In this document: one piece after another, positions 12,921 through 31,850 of the stretch
Layout: the number at the start of each line of letters is the position of its first letter
Numbering within the stretch: position 1 is the stretch's first letter
NCBI GenBank assembly: GCA_946411835.1
Contig: CAMKFK010000013.1
Coordinates: forward strand, 1 to 37,506
DNA from: an uncultured Clostridia bacterium
GTDB taxonomy: Bacteria; Bacillota; Clostridia; Oscillospirales; Oscillospiraceae
Length of the DNA stretch: 37,506 bases
Direction: 5' to 3'
Translations under genes and position numbers: made by a program
Notes under the pieces: generated by a model
Databases searched by the model: none
What the model saw: the letters and a program-made list of their open reading frames with translations, nothing else
What the model was told of the DNA's origin: nothing

Positions 12921-12956
12921 GAATCGGATGAAGCTGCTCAGAAAGGTGTGAACGCC

Positions 12957-14639
12957 GTGTCAACGGAACAGGATTTCTCCCGCCCCAATTTTCACGCGGT
13001 CAAAATCATCGGCCACCGCAACCCGGACACCGACTCGATCTGCGCCGCGATCTCCTACAGCCGACTGAAGAACAAAATCGACGCGAACCTCTCATACAAG
13101 CCCTGCCGCGCGGGTCAGCTCAGCCGCGAGACCAAGTTTGTGCTCGAACGCTTCGGCGCGGAGGCGCCCCAGCTCTATACCGACGTCAGCCCGCAGATGC
13201 GCGACGTGGACATCCGCCTCGCCCCGGGCGTGGACGGCGGCATGAGCCTGCGCCAGGCGTGGGAGCGGATGCGCGACCAGGACCTCGGCACCCTCTGCAT
13301 CGTGGATGACGAGAACAACCTGCAGGGCCTCATCACGTTGCAGGACGTTGCCACCGCAAACATGGACGGCGTGGACCCCTTCATCCTCGCCCAGGCGGAG
13401 ACGAGCTATGACAACGTGATCGAGACGATCAACGGCACGGTGCTCGTCGGAGACAGCAAGGGCAAAACCGTGGAGGGGCGCATCATCGTCGGCGCGGGCA
13501 GCTCGGAAATGATGGAGCGCGCCATCCGAAAGGGCGACATCGTCATCGTCAGCAACCGCAGCGAAAGCCAGCTCACCGCCATCGAGATGGAGGCGGGCTG
13601 TCTGGTGGTCGGCATGGACTCCAGGGTGTCCAAGACCATTCAGATGCTGGCGGAGGAAAACAACTGCCTCATCATCAGCACCCCGCTGAACACCTATGCC
13701 ACCGGCCAGATCATTTCGCAGGCGGCGCCGATCCGGTACTATATGCTCAGGAACCGCCTGATGACCCTAAACCTCAACACCCCGGTCGAGACGGCGACGA
13801 AGATCATGGGCTCCGTGCGCCACCGCTACTTCCCCGTCCTCGGCGACGACGGGAAGTATCTCGGCGTGGTCTCCCGCCGAAACCTGCTGAACCTGCACAA
13901 AAAGCAGCTCATCCTCGTCGATCACAACGAAAAGGCACAGGCGGTCGAGGGCCTGGAGAACGCGGAGGTGCTGGAAATCATCGACCACCACCGCATTGGC
14001 TCGCTGGAAACGGACAACCCCGTCTACTTCCGCAATATGCCGGTGGGCTGCACCTGCACCATCATCTACCAGATGTATCAGGAGAACGGCGTCGAGCCCG
14101 ACCCGCAGACGGCGGGCCTGATGCTCTCCGCCATCCTGTCCGATACGCTGATGTTCCGCTCGCCCACCTGCACCCCCAGCGACGAGCAGGCGGCGCGCCG
14201 CCTCGCGGAGATTGCCAACGTCGACCTGGAGACCTACGCCGACGAGATGTTTGAACACGGCGGCGACATCAGCGGCGAAACCGCCGAGCAGATCTTCGGC
14301 ACGGATTACAAAGTCTTCAACAGCGGGCGCTACCACTTCGGCGTCGGTCAGGGCAGCTACATGAGTGAGAAGAACCGCAAGGCGGCGGAGGCGCTGGTCG
14401 GCCCGTATCTGGAAACCGCACGGAAGGCGCAGGCGCTGGACTTCGTGTTCTACCTCTTCACCGACGTGCGCGGCAGCTCCAGCGACCTGCTGATGTCCGG
14501 CAAGGGCGCGGACGAGGTCGTCCGCCTTGCCTTCGGCGCCGAGGTATCGGACAGCTTCGCCACCCTCCCCGGCGTGCTGAGCCGCAAAAAGCAGTTCGTC
14601 CCGAAGCTGATTGACACGCTCAAGCGCGAGCCGGTGTGA
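12957..14639 (+). CDS. ppaC: Manganese-dependent inorganic pyrophosphatase with CBS and DRTGG domains
   Basis: A 560-residue family II (DHH) pyrophosphatase. The N-terminal catalytic part begins with IIGHRNPDTDSICAAI, the metal-binding HxNPDxDS motif. A regulatory insert of about 240 residues follows: first CBS (LCIVDDENNLQGLIT), DRTGG-type domain (VEGRIIVGAGSSEMME to ISTPLNTYATGQII) and second CBS (RYFPVLGDDGKYLGVVSR). The catalytic part resumes with ILVDHNE and EIIDHHRIG, the DHH signature, and ends with the substrate-binding SRKKQ. In Clostridium perfringens this architecture is inhibited by AMP/ADP and activated by diadenosine polyphosphates. The start is a GTG: 12957 has GAAAGG 10 nt before it; a GTG at 12948 is possible but sits against the ribosome binding site. 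Confidence 0.95.
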   Translation: MSTEQDFSRPNFHAVKIIGHRNPDTDSICAAISYSRLKNKIDANLSYKPCRAGQLSRETKFVLERFGAEAPQLYTDVSPQMRDVDIRLAPGVDGGMSLRQAWERMRDQDLGTLCIVDDENNLQGLITLQDVATANMDGVDPFILAQAETSYDNVIETINGTVLVGDSKGKTVEGRIIVGAGSSEMMERAIRKGDIVIVSNRSESQLTAIEMEAGCLVVGMDSRVSKTIQMLAEENNCLIISTPLNTYATGQIISQAAPIRYYMLRNRLMTLNLNTPVETATKIMGSVRHRYFPVLGDDGKYLGVVSRRNLLNLHKKQLILVDHNEKAQAVEGLENAEVLEIIDHHRIGSLETDNPVYFRNMPVGCTCTIIYQMYQENGVEPDPQTAGLMLSAILSDTLMFRSPTCTPSDEQAARRLAEIANVDLETYADEMFEHGGDISGETAEQIFGTDYKVFNSGRYHFGVGQGSYMSEKNRKAAEALVGPYLETARKAQALDFVFYLFTDVRGSSSDLLMSGKGADEVVRLAFGAEVSDSFATLPGVLSRKKQFVPKLIDTLKREPV

Positions 14640-15821: not shown

Positions 15822-15876
15822 AATCTTAATCAATATGTTGATAAAATTTAATAGCACTCTGAAGGAGGAGCACAAT

Positions 15877-17223
15877 ATGGAAATCAAAAACGAGTACCTC
15901 AGCGGCTTGATGGAGCGCGTGATTGCGCGCGATCCCGAGCAGAAGGAATTTCATCAGGCGGTCAGCGAGGTGCTGTATTCGCTCACGCCGGTCGTGGAGG
16001 CGCGTCCCGAGCTCATCACCGAGGGCGTGATGGACTGCCTGGTTGAGCCGGAGCGTCTGGTCAAGTTCCGCGTGCCCTGGGAGGACGATAAGGGTCAGTT
16101 CCACGTCAACCGCGGCTACCGCGTGCAGTTCAACAGCGCCATCGGCCCCTACAAGGGCGGCCTGCGCTTCCACCCCAGCGTCACCGAGAGCATCATCAAG
16201 TTCCTCGGCTTTGAGCAGACCTTCAAGAACAGCCTGACCGGTCTCCCCATCGGCGGCGGCAAGGGCGGCAGCGACTTCGACCCCAAGGGCAAGAGCGACG
16301 CTGAGGTCATGCGCTTCTGCCAGAGCTTCATGAACGAGCTGTTCAAGTATATCGGCGCGGACACGGACGTCCCGGCGGGCGACATCGGCGTCGGCGCGCG
16401 CGAGATCGGCTACCTGTTCGGCCAGTACAAGCGCCTGCGCAACGAGTTCACGGGCGTCCTGACCGGCAAGGGGCTCAGCTACGGCGGCTCCCTCGCCCGC
16501 ACGCAGGCGACCGGCTACGGTCTGTGCTACTTCGCCGCCAACCTGCTGCGCGACGCCGGAAAGAGCTTTGACGGCGCGACCGCGCTGGTCTCCGGCTCCG
16601 GCAACGTGGCGCTGTACGCCTGCCAGAAGGCACAGAGCATGGGCGCGAAGGTCGTCGCCATGAGCGACTCCGGCGGCTATGTCTACGATCCGGACGGCAT
16701 CAACTTTGAGCTGATGCGCCAGCTCAAGGAGGTCGAGCGCAAGCGTATCAGCGCCTACGCCGAGCTCCAGCCCGCCGCAACCTATCACGAGGGCTGCCGG
16801 GGCATCTGGACGATCCCCTGCGACATCGCGCTCCCCTGCGCCACGCAGAACGAAATCGACCTCGAGAGCGCGAAGACGCTGCTCAAAAACGGCTGCTACG
16901 CCGTGTGCGAGGGCTCGAACATGAGCTCCACGGCGGACGCGGTGGAGGCGCTTCAGGCGTCCGGCATCCTCTTCGCCCCGTCCAAGGCGTGCAACGCGGG
17001 CGGCGTGGCGGTCTCGGCGCTGGAGATGAGCCAGAACTCCATGCGCTTCTCGTGGACGTTTGAGGAGGTGGACGATCACCTCAAGCAGATCATGAACAGC
17101 CTGTACAAGAACGTGGTCAACGCCGCCGAGCAGTACGGCATGGCGGGCAACCTCGTCGCCGGCGCGAACATCGCGGGCTTCCTCAAGGTGGCGGATTCCA
17201 TGCTCGCCTACGGTCTGGTGTAA
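15877..17223 (+). CDS. gdhA: Glutamate dehydrogenase
   Basis: A 448-residue hexameric-type glutamate dehydrogenase that interconverts 2-oxoglutarate plus ammonia and glutamate with NAD(P)H. All key residues are present: the substrate-binding lysine in IGPYKGGLRFHP, the second lysine in EQTFKNSLTGLP, the catalytic lysine in GGGKGGSDFDPKGKS (Lys129), the catalytic aspartate in VPAGDIGVGAREIGY, and NAGGVAVSALEMSQN near the C-terminus. The Rossmann fingerprint is ALVSGSGNVALYA, followed by AMSDSGGY after the second strand, which suits NADP(H) (inferred). ATG 15877 follows a strong AAGGAGGAG. A second, altered copy starts 12 nt downstream. Codon use matches the neighbours. Confidence 0.97.
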   Translation: MEIKNEYLSGLMERVIARDPEQKEFHQAVSEVLYSLTPVVEARPELITEGVMDCLVEPERLVKFRVPWEDDKGQFHVNRGYRVQFNSAIGPYKGGLRFHPSVTESIIKFLGFEQTFKNSLTGLPIGGGKGGSDFDPKGKSDAEVMRFCQSFMNELFKYIGADTDVPAGDIGVGAREIGYLFGQYKRLRNEFTGVLTGKGLSYGGSLARTQATGYGLCYFAANLLRDAGKSFDGATALVSGSGNVALYACQKAQSMGAKVVAMSDSGGYVYDPDGINFELMRQLKEVERKRISAYAELQPAATYHEGCRGIWTIPCDIALPCATQNEIDLESAKTLLKNGCYAVCEGSNMSSTADAVEALQASGILFAPSKACNAGGVAVSALEMSQNSMRFSWTFEEVDDHLKQIMNSLYKNVVNAAEQYGMAGNLVAGANIAGFLKVADSMLAYGLV

Positions 17224-17235
17224 GGAGGGCGCAGA

Positions 17236-18582
17236 ATGAATCAATACGCAGAACGGGTGCTGTCCCGTCTGACGGAGCGGTACTTCAACGAAACGGAGTA
17301 TTTTCAGTCCGTCCGCGCGTGGCTCGAAATGATCGACCCCGCGCTCGACGACCCGCGCTACGAAAAGCTCGACCTGCTCACGCGCATGGTGGAGCCGGAG
17401 CGCATGGTGTCCTTCCTCGTGCCGTGGACGGACGATCGGGGCGTCGCCCACACGAACCACGGCTGGCGCGTCCAGTTTTCCAGCGCCATCGGCCCCTACA
17501 AGGGCGGTCTGCGCTTCCACCCGGACGTCAACGCCTCGGTGGTCAAGTTCCTCGGCTTTGAGCAGACCTACAAAAACGCGCTCACCGGGTTGCCCATCGG
17601 CGGCGCGTCGGGCGGCGCGGACTTCGACCCGCGCGGCAGGAGCGACCACGAGATCATGCGCTTCTGCCAGAGCTTCATGACCGCGCTCTACCGCTATATC
17701 GGCGCGGACACGGACGTTCCCGCCGGCGACATCGGCGTCGGCACCCGCGAGATCGGCTACCTCTACGGTCAATATAAGCGCATCTGCGGGCGCGCCGAGA
17801 GCAGCGCCCTGACCGGCAAGGGACTGACCTACGGCGGCAGCAAGATTCGCCAGGAAGCGGCGGGCGCGGGCGCGGTCTACTTCCTCGACCGGATGCTGGA
17901 GCATCAGGGCGACACGATCAAGGGCAAGCGCATTGCCGTGTCCGGCTTCGGCAACATGGCGTGGGGCGTGTGCAAGAAGGCGACGGAGCTGGGCGCGAAG
18001 GTCGTCACCGTCTCCGGTCCCGACGGTTACGTCCTCGATGAGGACGGCGTCGGCGCCCCCGAAAAGCTCGCGTTCCTGACCGAGCTGCGCGCGGGCGGTT
18101 CGGACAGGATCGCCTCCTATGCCGAGCGCTTCCCCGGCGCGGCGTTCTTCCCCGGCAGGAAGCCCTGGGAGCAGCCGGTCGACGTCGCCATGCCCTGCGC
18201 CACGCAGAACGAGATCGACGTCAGCGACGCGGTGCACCTGCTGGCGGGCGGCGTGAAGTACTACGTCGAGGCGGCGAATATGCCCGCCACGGCGGAGGCG
18301 CTCAAGCTCCTGCGCCTGAGCCCCAAAATTTTGACCGCCGGCTCCAAGGCGGCGGGCTCCGGCGGCGTGGCGGTATCCGCGCTGGAAATGGCGCAGAACA
18401 GCATCCGCTACAGCTGGTCGCGCAAGGAGGTGGACGAAAAGCTGCACGGCATCATGAGCAGCATTTACGACGCCTCCGCCGCCGCAGCGGAACGCTACGG
18501 TCTCGGCTACGACCTGATCGCGGGCAACGACATTGCGGCGTTTCTGAAGATCAGCGAAGCCATGATCGCGCAGGGACTGTAA
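17236..18582 (+). CDS. Glutamate dehydrogenase paralogue lacking the catalytic lysine
   Basis: A 448-residue protein, the same length as the gene before it and clearly homologous from end to end. The C-terminal half (VKYYVEAANMPATAEALKLL, AAAERYGLGYDLIAGNDI) resembles Clostridium symbiosum GDH even more. The glutamate-binding KGGLRFHP and EQTYKNAL lysines, the VPAGDIGVG aspartate and the AVSGFGNMAWG dinucleotide fingerprint are all kept. The catalytic lysine is not: GGxKGGSDFDP reads GGASGGADFDP, with TCG for Ser125 at 17608-17610. NAGG also becomes GSGG (Asn to Gly). The frame is open and codon use is normal, so it is not decaying. It may be a regulatory partner of the active GDH or bind another ligand. 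The AGGAGGG site overlaps the gap after gdhA; the two are co-transcribed. Confidence 0.93.
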   Translation: MNQYAERVLSRLTERYFNETEYFQSVRAWLEMIDPALDDPRYEKLDLLTRMVEPERMVSFLVPWTDDRGVAHTNHGWRVQFSSAIGPYKGGLRFHPDVNASVVKFLGFEQTYKNALTGLPIGGASGGADFDPRGRSDHEIMRFCQSFMTALYRYIGADTDVPAGDIGVGTREIGYLYGQYKRICGRAESSALTGKGLTYGGSKIRQEAAGAGAVYFLDRMLEHQGDTIKGKRIAVSGFGNMAWGVCKKATELGAKVVTVSGPDGYVLDEDGVGAPEKLAFLTELRAGGSDRIASYAERFPGAAFFPGRKPWEQPVDVAMPCATQNEIDVSDAVHLLAGGVKYYVEAANMPATAEALKLLRLSPKILTAGSKAAGSGGVAVSALEMAQNSIRYSWSRKEVDEKLHGIMSSIYDASAAAAERYGLGYDLIAGNDIAAFLKISEAMIAQGL

Positions 18583-18592
18583 CAGAGAATAA

Positions 18593-18634
18593 CGCACGGG
18601 TTGGGAGGCAATCTCTCAGCCCGTGCGATTTTTT
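18593..18634 (+). terminator. Terminator after the GDH pair
   Basis: An 8-bp stem CGCACGGG (18593-18600) with CCCGTGCG (18620-18627), a 19-nt loop with a small internal GGGAG/CTCTC pairing, and a six-T run. Confidence 0.82.
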
Positions 18635-21667: not shown

Positions 21668-23467
21668 CTATCTTCTCCGTTTCCCGGTCTCGCGGTAATA
21701 GCGGTCCTTATCCTCGTACATCCGCTTGTCGGCGGTGGCCTGCATGACGGCAAAGTCGGCGTTGTAACAGTGGCTGTACGAATAACCGATCGCCGCGCTG
21801 GCGTTCCGCTCCGCCATCAGCTGCCGGAACCGCGCGATACCGTCCCGGCACTCCTCCTCCGAATGGTCCTGCTGGATGACGATAAACTCATCCCCGCCCA
21901 TCCGGAACACGCACTTTTCCCCGAAAACCGCCGACAGGCAGCCCGCCACGTCAATGAGCAGATGGTCGCCCGCCTCGTGACCGCAGGTATCGTTTGTCTC
22001 CTTGAGACCGTTGACGTCCACCGCAAGCACGGCGAGGGGCTTGCCGCCGTACTGGTTGGCAAGAACGCTTTGCAGGCCGCTTCGGTTCATGACGCCGGTG
22101 AGATGATCGTTCATCGACAGGCGCTCGAGGCGGATCGCCTCGTCCATTTCGTAGTGCAGGCAGCTTTCCTTCGTGTTGAACCCGTTGAAGATGGCGACCA
22201 TCATATCGTAGCAGCTGTTGTAGCCGCACGCCGTGCAGTTGATATACCGGGATTCCGGCGTCGTCTTGTGCATTTTGCGGAAGATTTGCTCCGCCTCCTC
22301 CGCGCTGGGAATGCGCATTCCACTCTCGGTGCTCCGATCGACAAAGCGGCGCAGATAGTGCGAAAGGTCCAGGTCCTTGAACTGCTCGTTCAGGCGGGCA
22401 AGGCGCTCCTCCGGAGAGAGCGCGGGGTTCCACGGGGAATCCGAACGGTTGTTCTTGCTCTCCGTCCGGATCCGCTGAATCGCGTAGATCGTGCGGTCCT
22501 CCTCAAAGCGGCCCGCCTCGCACGCCGTGCCCTCGATGCAGCCCTCCTGACAGTTCAGCGCGTCCACCATCAGGAACGGGGTGTCCTGCTTTACCAGATG
22601 CTCGGCATTTTTCGCCAGCCAACCGTACAAATACGTCTTGCCCGAGACAACGCGAATCAGCGCGTCGTCCCCAAGGAACCAGCGCACATTGTCCGCAAGC
22701 CCTCCCGGCGCGGGATAGAACGACCCCAGACCGTATTCGATCTCATCCGAGGCGTCGGGTCCGGACACCGGATGCCGGCGCAGATGCTCCATCAGCTTCA
22801 GGAACGTGAGATTGTAGTGCACGTGGCTGTCGCCGTATTCGTCCGTTTCCAGCTTTTTCCCAATACACGGGCCGAGGAACGCAAGCCGGTCGGTGACGCC
22901 CAGCTGCTCGCGACAGTAGGTCGCCGCGCAGCCCATAGGGCTTTTCACCGGGATCAGGCGGGGGATCAGCTCCGGCAGGCAATGCTCAACATAGGAGACC
23001 GCGACCGGACAGGGGGTTGAAATCCCGCCGTAAAACCGGTTCTCCCGGATGTATTTGAGATAGGCCCATGTACAGATGTCCGCTCCGAAGGCGACCGAAA
23101 TGATCCGGCGAACGCCGAGCGCCTTCAGGCTGCCCAGAATCGAGCCGTATTCTTCCGGATATGACGCGCGAAAGGCGGGCGCAACCAGAAGCGTGATCGG
23201 CTCGCCCTGTGCCAGATCGCGGAAAAACACCTCTGTATCGTCGCGATAATCGCGCGCGTTGTGGTCGCACAGCGCAAAGCACGCGCCGCACGAGATGCAC
23301 CGCTCCGCGTTGATAAAAACGGCGGACGATGTGCCGTCGGTCCTGACGTAGCTCGCCCCCGGCGAGGTGCAGACTCTGACACATTTGTTGCAGCTGATGC
23401 AGTTCTCGTTTGTAAAGATCAGGCCATTCGTCCCGGCGTCCTCTCCATCCATCCTGTTTCTCTGCAT
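21668..23467 (-). CDS. Ferredoxin/[FeFe]-hydrogenase-like/GGDEF fusion, putative redox-sensing diguanylate cyclase
   Basis: A 599-residue cytoplasmic multidomain protein. Two 4Fe-4S ferredoxin motifs lie at residues 23-33 (CISCNKCVRVC) and 57-67 (CISCGACFALC). An iron-hydrogenase large-subunit C-terminal domain follows (about 85-370), but the H-cluster motifs are altered: STPCPVAVSY in place of TSCCPxW, GPCIGKKLE in place of MPCxxKxxE, and NCQEGCIEG in place of ACPGGC. Another Fe-S motif (NCTACGYNSC, about 405-425) precedes an intact GGDEF domain with RMGGDEF near residue 522, so cyclic di-GMP synthesis is expected. Loss of the exact H-cluster motifs, as in sensory group C/D hydrogenases, suggests signalling rather than hydrogen turnover. 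It has its own promoter and is monocistronic. Confidence 0.9.
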   Translation of the reverse strand: MQRNRMDGEDAGTNGLIFTNENCISCNKCVRVCTSPGASYVRTDGTSSAVFINAERCISCGACFALCDHNARDYRDDTEVFFRDLAQGEPITLLVAPAFRASYPEEYGSILGSLKALGVRRIISVAFGADICTWAYLKYIRENRFYGGISTPCPVAVSYVEHCLPELIPRLIPVKSPMGCAATYCREQLGVTDRLAFLGPCIGKKLETDEYGDSHVHYNLTFLKLMEHLRRHPVSGPDASDEIEYGLGSFYPAPGGLADNVRWFLGDDALIRVVSGKTYLYGWLAKNAEHLVKQDTPFLMVDALNCQEGCIEGTACEAGRFEEDRTIYAIQRIRTESKNNRSDSPWNPALSPEERLARLNEQFKDLDLSHYLRRFVDRSTESGMRIPSAEEAEQIFRKMHKTTPESRYINCTACGYNSCYDMMVAIFNGFNTKESCLHYEMDEAIRLERLSMNDHLTGVMNRSGLQSVLANQYGGKPLAVLAVDVNGLKETNDTCGHEAGDHLLIDVAGCLSAVFGEKCVFRMGGDEFIVIQQDHSEEECRDGIARFRQLMAERNASAAIGYSYSHCYNADFAVMQATADKRMYEDKDRYYRETGKRRR

Positions 23468-23727: not shown

Positions 23728-26280
23728 TCAGTCCTTCAGCTCGTCGCCGGTCAGCTTGGTCCAGGTCTCGCTGCCGCTGTTCCTGTCGTACAGGTGCGCG
23801 TTGGAGGACTCCACCATGTCGAAGTAGTACCACTGCGCGGCGTCCTGCAAGTCGGAGAACTGATTCAGCTCGCCCTTGTGCGCCGTGACGTACGACTGAT
23901 CCGCCGCGCGGCCCAGCATGTGGTTGACGATCGTGGCGACCTCGGCGCGCGTGATGTTGTTCGCGGGACCGAAGTTTCCGTCTCCGAACCCGTTGATCCA
24001 GCCGTACGCCGCCGCCGTCGCGATGTTGCTGCGCGCCCAGTGGTTCTCCGGAACGTCCAAAAACGTCGCCGTGCCGCCCGTTGCCTTGGCAAAGCGCGTC
24101 GCAATGGCGGCAAACTCCGCGCGGGTGATCGGCTCGTTCGGGTAGAAGTTTCCGTCGATGCCGCCGTTGATGATACCCATGCTTGCGAGCGTGCGAACCG
24201 CCTTGGCGTACCACGCGCCGTCCGGCACGTCCGGGAACGACTTCGTCAGCGTCACCTCGGGACGACGGAGGAGGCGATAGAACGCCTGCGCCGCCTCTGC
24301 GCGCGTCATGTTGCCCAGCGGACGAATGTCGCCCTCTACGTAACCGCGCAGGTACCAGATATGATCGTCCGTGTTGAGCAATCCGGACACGCCGGTGTCG
24401 TCCGGCGAGGCGACCTTCGTGGCGAACGTCGCGCGCACGGTCACGTCGCCCGAGGGCATGGCGAAGATGTAGACGCCGCCGACATTCAGCCGCGCGGTCG
24501 TGACCGTTCCGTCCGCCTTCGTCAGGGTCAGGCGGGTGAGCGCCTTGCCCTCGTCCGGGGTGATCGTGAGCGTCATCCTCGTCCCGGCGGGAACGCGCGC
24601 CGCCGGGCTGATCGTCATGCTGCCGCCGTCCGCCGACACGAGGTGGACGGTGTAGCCGTCTGTCGGCGTCGCCGTGCCGCCGCCGGAGCTGCCCGACTGA
24701 AAGACGGCGTAATACGTCACGCTTTCCGACAGGCTGGGCAGGCGGTCCGCCGGGATGCCGCTCGACGCGCCGGGCGCCGTGTTCCAGCCGGTGAAGGTCA
24801 TGCCCTCCCTGGCGGGCACCGTGCCGTTAAACTCCGGCTTCGTGCCGGCGGGGACGTTTTCGTCCGTCTCCAGCACCGTGTCGCCGTCCTTCCACGTCAC
24901 GGTGTACGCCCCGTCGTCCCGCTCGAAGAGCACGGACACCGTCGCGTCGGCGGAGGGCCGCCATTTCTTGCTGCCGCCGGAGACGGGATAGCGCGTCTGC
25001 CCCGCCGCGTCGCGGACCAGCGAGTTGCCCTGCGTCAGGCTCTTGATGTGCCAGCCGGGGTCCGCCTGGACGTAATACTGGTCCTCGCCGCCGGGCGCCA
25101 CCGTCGTCTCTGCGGCGGGGCTGATGATCCCCTCGCCGCCCTCGACGACATGGCGGACGCGGAGCCGCTGCTGCGCCGCAGCGCTGCCGACGACCACCAT
25201 CGCCTTGGGGCTAGGGAACTTGTCCTCCGTCCCCGGATACCAGACGTAATAGGTCCCCGCCGGGAGACCGGCGGTCGTGCCGTCGCCGCAGGGGGCGCCT
25301 GCGTTCGGATCGTCCGTGTCGACGGATTCGTCCTTTGCGTAGCGCATGGCGGAGGTCGTGCCCCGGAGCGCGCCGTCGGACGCGCCGGGCGCGGAGGCAT
25401 CCGCCCCGCTCACAACGGGCGCGGCCTGCGTGTGCGCCGTCCACACCGGGGTCAGCGCCGTGTCCGCCGTGACGGGAAAGTTGCTGCCCGCCTCGCGCGC
25501 CGTCGACTCGCCGGGCGCCTTCCAGCCCACGAACGTGTAGCGCGGCCTCGCCTCCGCCGGGACGGCGAGGCGGATGCTCGCGCCGTCGTCCGCCTCCGCC
25601 GTGAAGTCGGGCGTGCCGTCGGACTTCAAATAGGTCACGGTGTGGCGCGCGGCGGGCTCGCCCAGCTGCACAAGCAGGTTCTCAAACCGGCTCGTACCGG
25701 TCACGACGTCGGCAAGACTCGTGCCGTACCGGTACACGGACATCGTGTTCCCGCCGCCGGGGTTGCCCTCCACGTACACGGGATGGCACACGTCCACCAC
25801 GCTGCTCTCGCCGAGCGTCCTCGTGTCCTTGACCTTGAGCGTGAGCGTCAGGACCTCCGCGCCGGACGAGAGGCTGACGCGCCGCCCGTCGCTTGCCTTG
25901 AAGTAGTTCGCGCCCTTGCCGTGGGCGTTGTCGAGCGCGACGTCGTTATACATCTGAAACTCGACGCCGTCGCTCGTGGAATAGCTCGTGCGGTCGAAAA
26001 AGTCTTCGTCGTAATACAAATAGACGCCGCCGCCGCGCATGGGGACGTCCGTGTCGCTGGACACGGTCAGCGTGACCGTGACCGTGACCGTGTCGCCGGG
26101 GTTGACCGAGATTCGGTTTTGGTAGTTCGCACCGCTCGCCGGCTCCGACACGGCGCCGTCCGGTCCGGCGGCGGTGAGGGCGTAGGTCGTGACGGGGGCG
26201 GCCGCAGCGAGCGCCGTCAGCGTCAGGAGCAGGGACGCGGCGACGGCAAGCGATATGCTGCGGAAAAAGAATCGTTTCAT
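23728..26280 (-). CDS. SLH-anchored surface protein with cohesin-like and InlB-type repeats
   Basis: An 850-residue exported protein. Residues 1-28 are a signal peptide. A cohesin-like beta-sandwich (about 45-205: ISVNPGDTVTVTVTL, GGVYLYYDEDFF) follows. An InlB B-repeat-like module (TVTYLKSDGTPDF to RYTFVGWKAPGES, about 215-285) and a second one (YTVTWKDGDTVLE to MTFTGWNTAPG, about 455-530) flank a beta-rich linker. Three C-terminal SLH modules, at about 632-680, 685-735 and 748-800, have TRAEAAQAFYRLL, ITRAEFAAIATRF and ITRAEVATIVNHML. SLH modules bind pyruvylated secondary wall polymers, so this is the likely wall anchor for the operon. The ribosome binding site AGGAG is 9 nt before the ATG. 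Second gene of the surface operon, 98 nt after the giant gene. Confidence 0.92.
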   Translation of the reverse strand: MKRFFFRSISLAVAASLLLTLTALAAAAPVTTYALTAAGPDGAVSEPASGANYQNRISVNPGDTVTVTVTLTVSSDTDVPMRGGGVYLYYDEDFFDRTSYSTSDGVEFQMYNDVALDNAHGKGANYFKASDGRRVSLSSGAEVLTLTLKVKDTRTLGESSVVDVCHPVYVEGNPGGGNTMSVYRYGTSLADVVTGTSRFENLLVQLGEPAARHTVTYLKSDGTPDFTAEADDGASIRLAVPAEARPRYTFVGWKAPGESTAREAGSNFPVTADTALTPVWTAHTQAAPVVSGADASAPGASDGALRGTTSAMRYAKDESVDTDDPNAGAPCGDGTTAGLPAGTYYVWYPGTEDKFPSPKAMVVVGSAAAQQRLRVRHVVEGGEGIISPAAETTVAPGGEDQYYVQADPGWHIKSLTQGNSLVRDAAGQTRYPVSGGSKKWRPSADATVSVLFERDDGAYTVTWKDGDTVLETDENVPAGTKPEFNGTVPAREGMTFTGWNTAPGASSGIPADRLPSLSESVTYYAVFQSGSSGGGTATPTDGYTVHLVSADGGSMTISPAARVPAGTRMTLTITPDEGKALTRLTLTKADGTVTTARLNVGGVYIFAMPSGDVTVRATFATKVASPDDTGVSGLLNTDDHIWYLRGYVEGDIRPLGNMTRAEAAQAFYRLLRRPEVTLTKSFPDVPDGAWYAKAVRTLASMGIINGGIDGNFYPNEPITRAEFAAIATRFAKATGGTATFLDVPENHWARSNIATAAAYGWINGFGDGNFGPANNITRAEVATIVNHMLGRAADQSYVTAHKGELNQFSDLQDAAQWYYFDMVESSNAHLYDRNSGSETWTKLTGDELKD

Positions 26281-26378: not shown

Positions 26379-29300
26379 TTAGTACAGATCGAGGTACTCA
26401 CCGACCTCAACGTCTATTGTTACCTTCTTGCTCATGTCGTCGCTCTCGCTGCCGTCGCCGCGGGCGAAGTCGCTCTTGAGCGCGACGTCGTTGTAGCTTT
26501 CGAGCATTTCCGTGAAGCCGCTGCTGGTCACGTTCGTATCCTCCCTGCCGCCGCCGACCGCGATCATCTTGACCGCGCACGCGTCGCCCAGGGTGACGTT
26601 GCCGTCGCCGTTGACGTCGAGAATCGCGTCGTCGTTAAACGAAGAGGTGTGCGTGACGGTGCGGTCCTGCGTAGCGTCGATGGCACTCAGCTTATTATCC
26701 TTCACCCACTCCTCAGCCTTTTCCATGCTGAAGCCTTCCGCGCCAACCGCAGCAATCAGCTTGTTCATGTCGACCACCAGACCGTAGACGTACGGGGTGT
26801 TGTTCGGGCTGGCGTCAACAATCTTCTTGTAATTCGCGTCTTCGGCATTGTTGTGGTAGACATAGCCTGCCTGCGGGACGCTCCAGAACTTGGAGGCGTC
26901 ATCGGGACCGGGCGCAACGCTCTCGTCGTTCAGCAGGAAGGTGGCGGGCTCGTTGGTGTAGGCCAGGATCAGGGCGGCGTTGTCGCCGTAACCGGTGACC
27001 TCAACAATGTGGTTGAAGTCCTTGATGATGTAGGTCGCGGTGAGGACCAGCGGCTGATAGCCGGGCTTGGTGATCGTCGCGGTTACAACATAGGTGCCGG
27101 GATCCTTGAACGCGGGGACGTTGGACGGGTCGACCGGGAACTCCACCTTCTTGTCGTTGGTCTCCGGGTCAAAGGTCGCGGTGGTGGTGAGCTTGGCGTT
27201 CTCGGGCTCGCCGTCCTTGGTCCAGGTGTAGGTGACGGTCACGTCGTCCGTGGGATCGAGGGCGCTGACGTCCGTCGCCGGGCAGGCCTGGTACGTGATC
27301 TTGTTGTTGACGGTGGTCAGCTTCTCGTTCGCCTGCTGAATCAGCTCGACAGAGGGATGGTTCGCGTCGGTGAAGAAGACCTGACCGGTGGTCTTGCTGG
27401 AGTCAATGGGATCGAGCGCGTTGAGCGTGTAGCCGGTGATCTTCGGGTAGATGATGTTGATGTACTCGTTGTTGAGCTCCGCCGCGACCTCGCTGCCGAT
27501 GCCCTGGGTCGTCATCAGGCTGCCGTCGGTCACCTTGATCGGGATGAGCTCCTCGACCTCGGTCTTGGGCTCTTCGATCTCCTTGACCACGAAGTGGAAG
27601 GTGCCGAGCAGCGCCTCTTTCTGCGGGTTCTCAATGCTGGACGGGGCGTAGAACATGTCATCCGTATCCAGGACGTCCGCCAGCTTCCAGGTCTGGATGT
27701 TGTCGTTGCCGACGGTGCGGTTCTTCCAATCGATGCCGCGCGCGCTGGGCTCGATCTTGTTGTGGGTGTAGGTCGGGTTGCCTTCGCCGTCGAGGACCGG
27801 GTTGTTCTCGCTGTCAAGAACCTCCTTCTCGGTCTCGACGAGGTCGATGTAGCGCGAGTCAAAGGTCACGGTGGCGTAAGCGCCGAAGTGCGCCTTGTCG
27901 GCGTAGACCTTGACGTCGAACTTGTCGCCGGGCTGGAGGTCAAGGATGCTCTTGGTCTCGTAGGTGTTGCTCGTCACCAGATCCTTCGCGGGGTCGACGG
28001 CGAACGCCTTGACCAGGATGTTGTACTTCGAGCTGTCGCTGATTCTCCACGTGGAGAAGTGCGTCGTCTCAAAGGTGACGGTGTCGGCGGTGCTGGTGAT
28101 CTTTTCCGCGGGGTGCAGCGTCCAGTTGCCGCCGCTCTGGTAGTACAGCTTGCAGTTCTCGTTCCAGCCCGCGTAGGGGATGGTGACGGTGGCAACCTGA
28201 CCCGGGGTCTTGAAGGTGTAGTCGGAGTTGCCGTTGCCGATGGTCAGAATCTGGAAGATGTAGTCGCCGGTCTGCAGCTTGCCCTTCGCGGTGGCGTTGG
28301 TGACAGCGCTCGCGTCGGCGGGCTTGACGTACCAGCCGCCGCCGGACTGCTGATAGTCAAGGGCGTTGAGCGGCAGGGCGAACGTGATCCCGCTGCCGTC
28401 CGGCGAGTAGGACTGCGGCGTCACGACGGGGACCATCTCGGTCTTCATGACGGGCTCCTGAACCGGCTGGCCGTTCGCGTCGAGCACGGGCTCCATCACC
28501 GGCTCCATCACCGGCTCGGTCTCCTGCACGTAGACGGGGTTGCCCTGATCGTCGACCTTGGGGGTGCCGTCCTCGTTGGTCGCCTGCTTGTAGACGGGGT
28601 TGCCCTGCTCGTCGGTCTTGGGCGTGCCGTCCTCGTTGGTCTCCTGCACGTAGACGGGGTTGCCCTGCGCGTCGACCTTGGGCTGGGTGACGGTGTTGCC
28701 CTGCTCGTCCTTCTTCTCCTGGAAGACGGGCTGGCCGTTCTCGTCGGTGCTCTGCACCATCTTATCCTGCGTCTTGGGGGTGCCGTCCTCGTTGTAGACG
28801 GGGGTCTGCTTGGGGGTGCCGTTGCTGTTGAGCGCCGGCTGCATCTTGGGCTCGCCGCTCTCGTCGGTCTCCGGCGTGGCGACGGACACGGCGCCGGTGG
28901 CGGCGTTGACGGTCGCGGTCTGGCCGGGCTCAACGGTGACGGGGGTGTCGCCGACGTTGATCGTCGTGGGCTCCGCCGCGTCAGCGGGGACGGAGACGTT
29001 CACGTTGCCGTTGCTCGACACGGTGACGTCGTTGTTCTCGGTGGACGGGACCTCGGTGCCCTTCACCTCGGCGGTCGCGTTGTCGGGGACGACGGTGTTG
29101 CCGTTCTCGTCCTTCGCAACGGGCATGGACTGGCCGTCGTTGCCGGTGACGGTGGTGTTGCCGACGCTGATCTCCTTCGCGGAGACGTCGCCCTCCGGGG
29201 AGATGGTGCCGCCGCTCTCGAGCGGGATGGACTTGACCGGCACCTGCTCGTAGACGGGGTTGCCGTCCTCGTCAACCACGTCCTCATAGATGACGTTGCC

Positions 29301-31850
29301 GTTGATGTCCTTCTTGTTCTGCGTGACGGGCTGCACGGTCTCCTCATAGACGATCTTGCCGTCCACGTCACGCACGTATTCGCCGGTCTCGGGATCGACC
29401 TTCGGGGTCTTGACGGTTTCGGTCTTCTGCACCATGACGGGCTTGGTCTGCTCCTCGTCCTCCCAGAGGGGGTTGCCGTCCTCGTCCTTCGCCTGGACCA
29501 TGACGGGCTCCTGCACCGGCTGGCGCTTGGGCTGGGTCACGGTCTCGTTCGCGGTGGAGCCGGCGGGCAGGGAGACGCCGTCCCCGTCCTTCTTGATCTC
29601 GGTCGCGGCGTTCGCCGGGACCGTGTAGGACTGGTCTTCGGGGACGGTGACGGTTTCGCCGTCGGTGCCGTCGGCGTTCTTCGGGGTGATCTTGGTGCCC
29701 TCGGTCGCGGTGAGGACGCCCTTGTTGCTGATGGTCGCGGGGACGTAGGCGGCGTTCTCGTCGACCGTGCCGTCGGCCTTGGTGGGCAGCTCGGGCGCCT
29801 CGAGCTTGGACGTGGTGGTCTTGCCGGAGGCGTCGGTGGTGGTCACGTTGACGGTCTCGCCCGGCTTGATCGTGACGGTGCCGTCCGGCGCGACCTCGGT
29901 CGCGGACGCGGGCGTGATCGTCGTGGTCTTCTTCTCGCCGTCCTCGTAGGTCGTGACGGTGACGGACTTGGGGGTGCCGGATTCGTCTAGTATGGACGTG
30001 CTGGTAGTCTGGTTCTCTCCGTCAGTGTAGACGGATTCCTTGCGGAGGTCCCCTGTGTAACCCTTTGCATCGAGTCCGGTTAGGCTGGTGTCTGTCCCGG
30101 CTTTCCCGTAGTTTTTTATCACGGGGTTCGATCCACCGGTCGTGCGGAACGAGCCGTCGCCCTTGAGGTCCTCCACGCGTGCAGACGAGTCGCGTGGGAT
30201 CGTAATAGCCCAGTCCGGTCCGACCAACTTGCTTGTTTTGAGATCGGCGGGATCGTCTGCCGAGTCCCCGGTCCAGTCACTAAGTCGATAGAAGATTTCG
30301 CCTTCTGGCGTTCCGATCGTCACGGTTGCGCGGTCTGCGTGCACCGTAACATAGGTTGAGTCGTAGCTTTCATAGTCGTAATTGCCGTTCTGCGTGTAGT
30401 TCATTATTCGTACTCGGGGCACCGGACTTCCGTCAGAATGAACACGCCATCCGTCAGATGTTTGCGGGAATGTGAAGCTCCCATCGGGGTTCCGAGTGAA
30501 AATCATGTTGTTGTCCGCGTCAACATCGGCGTATATCATCAGCAGAGCGTCCTCGAACCGCTTGTCGCGACCGAGGTCAATTCGTGCCTCTCCCCATCTG
30601 TCGACTGGGCAGTTGCCGTATTCGTCGATCACGGCAAAAGGATATCTCGGGTTGTTCATTTCGCTATTTCCGTTATGGAACATCAGGCCTTCATTAAAAC
30701 TCGGAGCAAGCGCTGAGCTCACCGCTCGAGTGTCAGAGTTGGTGTAAATCAAAGCGTCTAATGTCGACCGTCCGTAAACCGGAAGACTGCTTTCATCGGG
30801 ACTTTGCGCAGACGACATCTGAAAAGTTGTGGAGTAAATTGCATAGTGCGAGAGTCGGCAAGATTCGTACCCGCGCGTGACTCCAAGCTGGTAGCAGTAG
30901 TTGGTCATGCTGCTGTTGAGGTAACAGTGGGTGCTTAAGCCGTTCTGTCCCACGCCGAAGAACGGCCTGATGTTCGTCCCTTTTATGTAGCAGTTGTGCA
31001 AGCGAGCACTACTCGTCTCTACAATTGTCGTATCTCCGGTCATGCCGATGTTCGAAAACATGCCGCCCTGGATCTTGTCCCTTGCGAAAGTCAACCATCC
31101 GCACAACACTTGTGTTCTAATAGGCGTAATCGCGCGTACCATAGCGGGTGTAAATTGGGATGTCGAAACCAGCGTAAAGTTCGACATTATCAAATCTGAT
31201 GTGGTTTTAGCAGAAAACGGATAAGGGTATCCGGACACGGAGTAGTCGCTCAGCACGAAGTTGAACACACCGCACGGACTGTTCCCGTTTCCTTGCATCC
31301 GAGCATATATAGTGCTCCGTTGACCACAAATCGTGGCCCCCTTCATGTCGATCATCCCGTTGAAGACGATCGTCGACTCAGCAAGTCGTGTCGCCAAGTT
31401 AAGGCCAGCGGGGAGACCGGCTGGTTTCGTGCCCTTGCTGAGTTCGGTCAGCCCGGCGTATTCCTCTGCGGTCGAAATCGTAAAGCTTGTAGCGTTCGGG
31501 TCTGCAGCCAAAGCCGATGTAAACCAGCCATAATCTGGCGTCCAGCTCTCAACATAATCCTCGTCCTCGGGCTGGGTCAGGACGCCGACGGGCACGCCCT
31601 TGACCAGGCCGTAGCCGGGGATGTCCTCCCAGTCCTCGTCCGTCCAGTTCCACCAGTTGGGGGAACCGTCTTCGTTCCAAATCTGGAGCACCTTACCGCT
31701 CGCGGTGGTGACGATTGTGATCTCCTCCTCCGCCGGTTCCTCCGGGTCTGCGGGCGGGTCGTCGTCCGCGAACGCGGCGGTGGGCAGCAGGGACAGGCAC
31801 ATCACGAGTGTGAGTGCCAGCGCGGCGAGCCGCTTTTTCATCGTAAACAT
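26379..31850 (-). CDS. Giant secreted mosaic surface protein with dockerin-like C-terminus
   Basis: A 1823-residue exported protein. Residues 1-28 form a signal peptide (KKRLAALALTLVMCLSLLPTAAFA). A Trp/acid-rich head (about 30-97) precedes a beta-helix-like passenger (about 98-620) in which most of the protein's cysteines lie. A Thr/Val/Pro/Glu-rich stalk with DEDGNPVY and EPVM repeats runs to about 1140; a beta-sandwich (to 1270), a cohesin-like domain (about 1275-1470: LQPGDKFDVKVYADK) and Ig-like domains (1480-1620) follow. Near 1740 a single dockerin-type EF-hand-like repeat occurs, DVNGDGNVTLGDA. No transmembrane, LPXTG or SLH anchor is seen. DNA encoding residues 98-620 is clearly lower in GC than the rest. 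A predicted leader peptide and promoter lie upstream. The exact binding target is unknown. Confidence 0.88.
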   Translation of the reverse strand: MFTMKKRLAALALTLVMCLSLLPTAAFADDDPPADPEEPAEEEITIVTTASGKVLQIWNEDGSPNWWNWTDEDWEDIPGYGLVKGVPVGVLTQPEDEDYVESWTPDYGWFTSALAADPNATSFTISTAEEYAGLTELSKGTKPAGLPAGLNLATRLAESTIVFNGMIDMKGATICGQRSTIYARMQGNGNSPCGVFNFVLSDYSVSGYPYPFSAKTTSDLIMSNFTLVSTSQFTPAMVRAITPIRTQVLCGWLTFARDKIQGGMFSNIGMTGDTTIVETSSARLHNCYIKGTNIRPFFGVGQNGLSTHCYLNSSMTNYCYQLGVTRGYESCRLSHYAIYSTTFQMSSAQSPDESSLPVYGRSTLDALIYTNSDTRAVSSALAPSFNEGLMFHNGNSEMNNPRYPFAVIDEYGNCPVDRWGEARIDLGRDKRFEDALLMIYADVDADNNMIFTRNPDGSFTFPQTSDGWRVHSDGSPVPRVRIMNYTQNGNYDYESYDSTYVTVHADRATVTIGTPEGEIFYRLSDWTGDSADDPADLKTSKLVGPDWAITIPRDSSARVEDLKGDGSFRTTGGSNPVIKNYGKAGTDTSLTGLDAKGYTGDLRKESVYTDGENQTTSTSILDESGTPKSVTVTTYEDGEKKTTTITPASATEVAPDGTVTIKPGETVNVTTTDASGKTTTSKLEAPELPTKADGTVDENAAYVPATISNKGVLTATEGTKITPKNADGTDGETVTVPEDQSYTVPANAATEIKKDGDGVSLPAGSTANETVTQPKRQPVQEPVMVQAKDEDGNPLWEDEEQTKPVMVQKTETVKTPKVDPETGEYVRDVDGKIVYEETVQPVTQNKKDINGNVIYEDVVDEDGNPVYEQVPVKSIPLESGGTISPEGDVSAKEISVGNTTVTGNDGQSMPVAKDENGNTVVPDNATAEVKGTEVPSTENNDVTVSSNGNVNVSVPADAAEPTTINVGDTPVTVEPGQTATVNAATGAVSVATPETDESGEPKMQPALNSNGTPKQTPVYNEDGTPKTQDKMVQSTDENGQPVFQEKKDEQGNTVTQPKVDAQGNPVYVQETNEDGTPKTDEQGNPVYKQATNEDGTPKVDDQGNPVYVQETEPVMEPVMEPVLDANGQPVQEPVMKTEMVPVVTPQSYSPDGSGITFALPLNALDYQQSGGGWYVKPADASAVTNATAKGKLQTGDYIFQILTIGNGNSDYTFKTPGQVATVTIPYAGWNENCKLYYQSGGNWTLHPAEKITSTADTVTFETTHFSTWRISDSSKYNILVKAFAVDPAKDLVTSNTYETKSILDLQPGDKFDVKVYADKAHFGAYATVTFDSRYIDLVETEKEVLDSENNPVLDGEGNPTYTHNKIEPSARGIDWKNRTVGNDNIQTWKLADVLDTDDMFYAPSSIENPQKEALLGTFHFVVKEIEEPKTEVEELIPIKVTDGSLMTTQGIGSEVAAELNNEYINIIYPKITGYTLNALDPIDSSKTTGQVFFTDANHPSVELIQQANEKLTTVNNKITYQACPATDVSALDPTDDVTVTYTWTKDGEPENAKLTTTATFDPETNDKKVEFPVDPSNVPAFKDPGTYVVTATITKPGYQPLVLTATYIIKDFNHIVEVTGYGDNAALILAYTNEPATFLLNDESVAPGPDDASKFWSVPQAGYVYHNNAEDANYKKIVDASPNNTPYVYGLVVDMNKLIAAVGAEGFSMEKAEEWVKDNKLSAIDATQDRTVTHTSSFNDDAILDVNGDGNVTLGDACAVKMIAVGGGREDTNVTSSGFTEMLESYNDVALKSDFARGDGSESDDMSKKVTIDVEVGEYLDLY
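28521..28680 (-). repeat. 60-bp in-frame tandem repeat in the stalk
   Basis: A 20-residue unit (GNPVYVQETNEDGTPKTDEQ-like) is repeated at exactly 60-bp spacing, seen as TAGACGGGGTTGCC at 28531, 28591 and 28651. Degenerate relatives continue on both sides. Repeat number is likely to vary between strains. Confidence 0.85.

Follow-up and report, generated by a model that had tools for sequence, protein, structure and literature searches.

The second of two tandem glutamate dehydrogenase (GDH) genes in an uncultured Oscillospiraceae bacterium belongs to a clade of full-length GDHs in which the catalytic lysine is absent from all copies found (n = 15), each copy being situated directly downstream of an NADP-type GDH gene on the same strand. 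GDH is the textbook hexamer that assimilates ammonium. Judging from the residue pattern and from the analogy with the Thermus enzyme, we lean towards the interpretation that this protein, further called pseudo-GDH, works with its operon partner in a mixed GDH, as a subunit that does not catalyse but probably binds a ligand.

The GDH pair and its surroundings

The window, that is, the whole stretch of DNA that was analysed (37,506 nucleotides), is one complete contig (G000:C13) of a 2.1-Mb draft genome (G000; 142 contigs, 75% complete). As the original prediction had it, the window contains two full-length GDH genes, both of 448 codons. They are located head to tail with a 12-base spacer between them. 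The unit comprises the following features:

15862..15868, + strand: ribosome-binding-like AAGGAGG upstream of GDH1, read from the sequence
15877..17223, + strand: GDH1, NADP-type glutamate dehydrogenase (NF006929, PRK09414), 448 aa, catalytic Lys present, first gene of the unit
17224..17235, + strand: spacer of 12 bases with GGAGG at 17224-17228, preceding the second ATG
17236..18582, + strand: pseudo-GDH, 448 aa, ATG to TAA, NAD-type lineage, Lys125 replaced
17608..17610, + strand: TCG codon, Ser where the catalytic Lys125 is expected
17860..17862, + strand: codon 209, Ala in place of an otherwise nearly invariant Thr
18355..18366, + strand: GSGG instead of NAGG, codons 374-377
18593..18627, + strand: terminator-like hairpin, 16 pairs and a T run

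The short spacer with its GGAGG suggests tight co-translation of GDH1 and pseudo-GDH, and the hairpin is likely the end of the two-gene unit; beyond it lie genes for homoserine dehydrogenase and iron alcohol dehydrogenase. The number of terminator-like sites in the scan (three, vs. 2.4 in shuffles) is not significant, hence it is the stem length, not the count, that supports the hairpin: 16 pairs here and 6 pairs in each other site. No RNA control element was observed at the gathering score in the Rfam scan of the window.

Pseudo-GDH belongs to the ELFV (Glu/Leu/Phe/Val) dehydrogenase fold family, with full-length matches to PF02812 (171.8 bits, cut-off 25.3) and PF00208 (239.9 bits, cut-off 23.4). 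The closest named records to the protein are the Oscillospiraceae MAGs RUI382 (93% identity) and RGIG6629, from sheep rumen (88%). Both window GDHs also score above the cut-off of 536 of the NADP-specific model NF006929 (604 and 738.7 bits), but while the partner is of this type, pseudo-GDH falls in the other half of the GDH tree and has Phe238 where the partners have Ser. This standard model names pseudo-GDH 'NADP-specific glutamate dehydrogenase', and metabolic models would accordingly count an enzyme, which calls for caution in annotation. Outside the window, the same genome encodes a third GDH, which is Lys-bearing and of the NAD type (G000:C19:24284-25630), and a distant fourth ELFV dehydrogenase homologue (G000:C37:808-1341, - strand).

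Loss of the lysine and the changes linked to it

By sequence, the closest solved structure is the NAD-specific GDH of C. symbiosum (1bgv; E 9.9e-177), which has the same substrate residues. In the alignment with it, the motif GGASGGADFDP, with Ser125 (TCG) opposite the Lys of GGAKGGSDFDP, and GSGG for NAGG are both seen as had been predicted, and the substrate lysines K89 and K113, the catalytic D165 and the Rossmann GxGN are indeed kept. The same alignment defines the numbering: window position 125 is C. symbiosum 125, there is a one-residue gap near 304, and window 374 is C. symbiosum 373. Lys125, Thr209, Asn373 and Ala374 (C. symbiosum numbering) are replaced in pseudo-GDH. We take K89, Q110, K113, R205, S380, T209 and N373 to have roles in the C. 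symbiosum GDH site, position 209 presumably being on its nicotinamide side. In Arabidopsis GDH1, as described in PMC7326016, the lysine activates the attacking water and an aspartate passes protons.

The catalytic Lys is absent in 15/15 pseudo-GDHs and present in 128/128 comparison GDHs. The latter set comprises 110 reference GDHs, 13 partner NADP-GDHs and 5 NAD-type genes, a few genes being duplicated under different locus ids; the references were taken from the fetched loci after removal of identical rows and of matches that contained stops or fell short of about 420 residues. Lys is also found at position 125 in 12 further NAD-type genes and in all 20 stand-alone NADP-GDHs, taken among the matches listed in the 400-genome family search. 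In the pseudo-GDHs this position is occupied by Ala (n = 10; codons GCC/GCG) or Ser (n = 5; TCC/TCG). Thus, in the proposed check of whether Ser125 is conserved among homologues, the loss of lysine proves to be conserved, while Ser itself does not.

We considered a position as altered if at least 90% of the 115 NAD-type and reference rows had one residue that never occurs in the 15 pseudo-GDHs. There are 13 such positions: 29, 112, 125, 206, 209, 241, 369, 374, 375, 431, 432, 435 and 439. Seven replacements are fixed in all 15 copies (T209A, V241M, P369G, N374G, A375S, A431N and N432D, window numbering); at position 209, Ala is found in 15/15 pseudo-GDHs, and Thr in 114/115 NAD-type and reference rows and in 13/13 partners. 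Eight of the 13 altered positions (112, 125, 206, 209, 241, 369, 374, 375) coincide with active-site residues or are close to them in the sequence, the anchors presumably being K113 (next to 112), R205 (next to 206), N240 (next to 241) and NAGG (369, 374 and 375 being within it or just ahead of it). All 15 pseudo-GDHs have in common four changes close to the nicotinamide site as presumed here.

The glutamate/2-oxoglutarate residues and the adenosine side of the NAD site are retained. D165, K89, K113 and S380 are kept in 15/15 pseudo-GDHs, and so are three residues of the presumed NAD site of 1bgv, Phe238, Pro262 and Asp263. All 12 positions of the substrate set and all 10 of the dinucleotide set are invariant in the 15 proteins, both sets being our own choice from the GDH structure. 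At position 238, the pseudo-GDHs have Phe (15/15), the partners Ser (13/13), and the five NAD-type genes Tyr (n = 3) or Phe (n = 2). According to a paper on Pantoea GDH (PMC12364357), the site that it calls P2 is Ser or Ala in NADP-GDHs and usually Phe in NAD-GDHs; if P2 is position 238 here, which is our mapping, then the pseudo-GDHs are NAD-like and the partners NADP-like.

In four genomes of the window's genus (loci L164, 9285-10631; L166, 9063-10409; L169, 8707-10053; L170, 3-1034), the Lys-bearing NAD-GDH has NACG for NAGG close to the C-terminus.

Distribution, ancestry and selection

Fourteen of the 15 pseudo-GDHs, the window's included, are in the 400-genome sample of the family, and one more (G010) is in the genus. 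The protein search in 119 relatives yielded three clear orthologues besides the window's protein (93, 88 and 77% identity), and the search in the 400 family genomes, 14 matches of at least 76% identity including the window's, followed by the next match at 61%; the G010 copy was found via the relatives and genus searches. The reading frame is open throughout in all 15 genomes, and one copy is on a single 3.58-Mb contig (G411). Within genera the occurrence of pseudo-GDH is patchy (3/18 genomes in the window's genus), hence the pair may have spread horizontally; in the comparison made for such spread, the NAD-GDHs from the genus groups may be paralogues.

Independent losses of the lysine were sought with a broad codon pattern, which gave 65 places in 54/400 family genomes. 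Fourteen of these are pseudo-GDHs, one is a chimeric fragment, and at E 1e-5 the other 50 match no GDH. The pattern omits codons starting with A and requires exact flanking codons, so that losses to such codons escape it. A stricter pattern matched 2/394 genomes of the order sample, both from the window's genus. The chimeric fragment (L146, 7594-8784, - strand, genome G195) has Ala125, starts like pseudo-GDH, continues like the partner and stops at the contig edge; either the tandem pair was collapsed during assembly or the two genes are truly fused.

The tandem order, whose conservation among homologues had been proposed as a check, is retained in all 15 cases. The partner gene is complete on the contig in 13/15 cases and cut by the contig end in two (G397, G424); its Lys is seen in all 13 complete genes and in the G424 fragment, and the G397 fragment does not include the site. 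The spacer is 12 bases long in ten genomes and 13 in one, the others being 24, 53, 170 and 302 (n = 15; the spacers of G397 and G424 were computed from coordinates). When six flanking window genes were used as probes, matches were obtained for two, the carrier and homoserine dehydrogenase genes, and only in G010, the closest relative, some of the loci being short. Thus, the GDH pair forms a conserved unit, and no conserved neighbourhood that could serve as a pathway clue was observed beyond it with these six probes, several loci being short.

In the quick tree (144 rows, midpoint-rooted), the pseudo-GDHs group in a single clade (SH-aLRT 100) within the half occupied by clostridial NAD-type GDHs, and the partners form one clade in the opposite half; C. 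symbiosum GDH is absent from this tree, and the halves were named via the 1bgv alignment and position 238. In the careful tree (53 rows, two NAD-type references only), both clades have support of 100/100, and the stem is 0.69 for the pseudo-GDHs vs. 0.17 for the partners. As the two genes fall in opposite halves of the tree, a recent tandem duplication was rejected, and the pair was assembled from two old subfamilies. Hence the description of the gene as a tandem paralogue fails if it is read as a duplicate of the neighbour: a member of the NAD-type lineage stands beside an NADP-type gene.

Selection was assessed by dN/dS (NG86) in those 13 genomes in which the partner gene is complete. In seven close pairs, pseudo-GDH has a dN/dS of 0.08-0.13, and the partner, 0.07-0.12; the medians over the 77/78 pairs with dS < 1.5 are 0.19 and 0.18, respectively, and the mean dN is slightly higher in pseudo-GDH (0.142 vs. 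0.127). The sequences thus indicate that the pseudo-GDH clade is under purifying selection much like that on the partner, and, as a single long-stemmed clade among NAD-type GDHs that is held by such selection, pseudo-GDH is neither a decaying copy nor a recent tandem duplicate. The original prediction that an intact pseudoenzyme accompanies an active copy agrees with the full open reading frame, the lysine loss in 15/15 copies and dN/dS, which shows that this pseudoenzyme is also under selection. Restriction of Ser to one strain together with relaxed selection, which would have spoken against the prediction, was not observed: Ser is present in five copies, and dN/dS is low. With 15 lysine-less copies, a Ser or Ala codon in each of them, and dN/dS at about the partner's level, sequencing error, considered unlikely from the outset, was rejected along with relaxed selection.

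The distances of the two genes over the 13 genomes are strongly correlated (Mantel r 0.906; 0/5000 permutations as high). This is a correlation of shared inheritance, not of binding, and adjacency is likewise expected from co-inheritance alone. Some convergence might be expected of two proteins with a common interface. Yet only 2 columns are shared by pseudo-GDH solely with the partners, vs. 7 shared solely with stand-alone NADP-GDHs. The similarity of the N-terminal 49 residues to the partner is 0.28 for pseudo-GDH and 0.38 for ordinary NAD-GDHs, and that of the C-terminal 33 residues, 0.48 and 0.59; these terminal segments are also less similar to stand-alone NADP-GDHs, and the remaining segments differ by at most 0.05. 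With 2 vs. 7 columns and termini that are less partner-like, no convergence that would point to a common interface was found. Fourteen positions separate the 13 partners from the 20 stand-alone NADP-GDHs, and nothing is drawn from them, as the main residue of pseudo-GDH is the partner's at three only (72, 154 and 246).

Possible role of pseudo-GDH

On its own, pseudo-GDH very probably has no GDH activity, given its residues. It rather probably acts through the partner, and in our judgement the chances that it is a ligand-sensing subunit of a mixed hexamer are evenly balanced. A non-catalytic tuning subunit is favoured because the substrate and adenosine sites are kept and the gene is always found beside an NADP-GDH. 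The mechanism would be as follows. Judging from the sequence and what is known of the family, pseudo-GDH would be unable to turn over glutamate. It would co-assemble with the NADP-GDH into mixed hexamers; within the hexamer, its ligand would be glutamate or 2-oxoglutarate, which it may bind along with NAD(H) or other adenine nucleotide, and it would alter how active or how stable the catalytic subunits are. We would only tentatively go further and suggest that, in this family of gut bacteria (the named relatives are Oscillospiraceae), dead NAD-type GDHs have become a dedicated sensor subunit of the NADP-GDH, whose intact non-catalytic site reads glutamate or 2-oxoglutarate jointly with NAD(H) or an adenine nucleotide. 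If so, the sensor subunit would let the catabolic cofactor state gate ammonium assimilation.

The same retained residues of the glutamate and NAD-adenosine sites (15/15) would also suit a pseudoenzyme that forms its own hexamers, binds glutamate/2-oxoglutarate or an adenine nucleotide and regulates something other than the neighbouring GDH, its co-expression with GDH1 resulting only from a shared signal. The failure to find convergence with the partner fits this alternative; however, we consider it unlikely, as all 15 copies are directly behind an NADP-GDH with the other flanking genes tried not being kept, and the spacing is tight in 11/15. Somewhat less likely still is a new enzyme, in which the loss of the lysine and of the NAGG asparagine and the change of Thr209 would have made the site accessible to a different reaction, the substrate being a glutamate-like acid and the cofactor a dinucleotide or some other compound. 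The location of 8/13 replacements at or near active-site residues looks like remodelling rather than decay, provided that the assumed site roles are correct, and the long stem followed by strong conservation points in the same direction. Against this reading, position 125 is Ala or Ser and no new catalytic group is fixed there, and K125, T209 and N374 have all changed to smaller, less polar residues.

That pseudo-GDH is still an active GDH, with another residue substituting for the lysine, seems very improbable. D165 and the substrate lysines are present, but the Lys, which activates water in Arabidopsis GDH1 (PMC7326016), is kept in 128/128 comparison GDHs, and residues on the presumed nicotinamide side are altered as well. 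A decaying duplicate or a sequencing or assembly error is hardly conceivable: the draft state of the window's genome and the chimeric fragment at a contig end in the relative G195 could be cited for it, whereas the frame is open in 15 genomes, including one in which it lies on a single 3.58-Mb contig, dN/dS is about as low as the partner's, and every copy has a Ser or Ala codon.

The preferred reading, a non-catalytic subunit working with the partner, has a precedent. In PMC9570180, Thermus thermophilus GDH is described as four inactive GdhA and two GdhB subunits, GdhA being the regulatory one. There, an inactive GDH paralogue serves an active one (PDB 3aoe; PMC9570180), which is what we propose here from sequence. 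In the Thermus GDH, leucine is an allosteric effector acting through the inactive subunit. The Thermus GdhA and GdhB genes adjoin each other, and likewise each pseudo-GDH gene is next to a catalytic GDH paralogue (15/15). However, pseudo-GDH is of another subfamily: the 3aoe chains score only E 1.7e-50 and 3.1e-38 against it, compared with 9.9e-177 for C. symbiosum GDH, and here a putative NAD-type pseudo-subunit is combined with an NADP-type enzyme. Common descent with Thermus GdhA was not observed: the clade is among clostridial NAD-type GDHs and the 3aoe chains are distant, GdhA itself being absent from the tree. GDH hexamers mixing different paralogues are described for Arabidopsis GDH1-3 in PMC7326016. 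For pseudo-GDH, such hexamers are a proposal. To our knowledge, all subunits of the mixed Arabidopsis GDHs are catalytic, and inactive regulatory GDH subunits are known only from Thermus.

Among the matches listed in the open-licence literature (titles and abstract openings), we found no lysine-less GDH of the pseudo-GDH family. Thus, the inactive regulatory subunit as such is known from Thermus, while the pseudo-GDH lineage, the pairing of NAD-type with NADP-type and the residue pattern are new to us. If the preferred reading holds, this would be a second, separately evolved case of an inactive subunit, present in several genera of one family, in which the catalytic lysine was lost naturally and the nicotinamide side was altered too, and would provide a pair for testing the control of a live subunit by a dead one.

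Several other genes of the window deserve mention. A frame of 1823 residues (26379-31850, - strand) has no Pfam match at E 0.01 and contains 60-base tandem repeats at 28518-28683; opposite to it there is a frame of 1113 residues, and either strand may code. The product of 23731-26280 (- strand) has cohesin-like, Listeria-Bacteroides-repeat and S-layer homology domains, which suggests cell-surface anchoring. In the product of 21671-23467 (- strand), an iron-hydrogenase-like C-terminal domain with 4Fe-4S motifs is fused to a GGDEF (diguanylate cyclase) domain. Finally, 12948-14639 (+ strand) encodes a DHH/DHHA2 phosphatase into which CBS and DRTGG domains are inserted, presumably of the nucleotide-regulated pyrophosphatase type.
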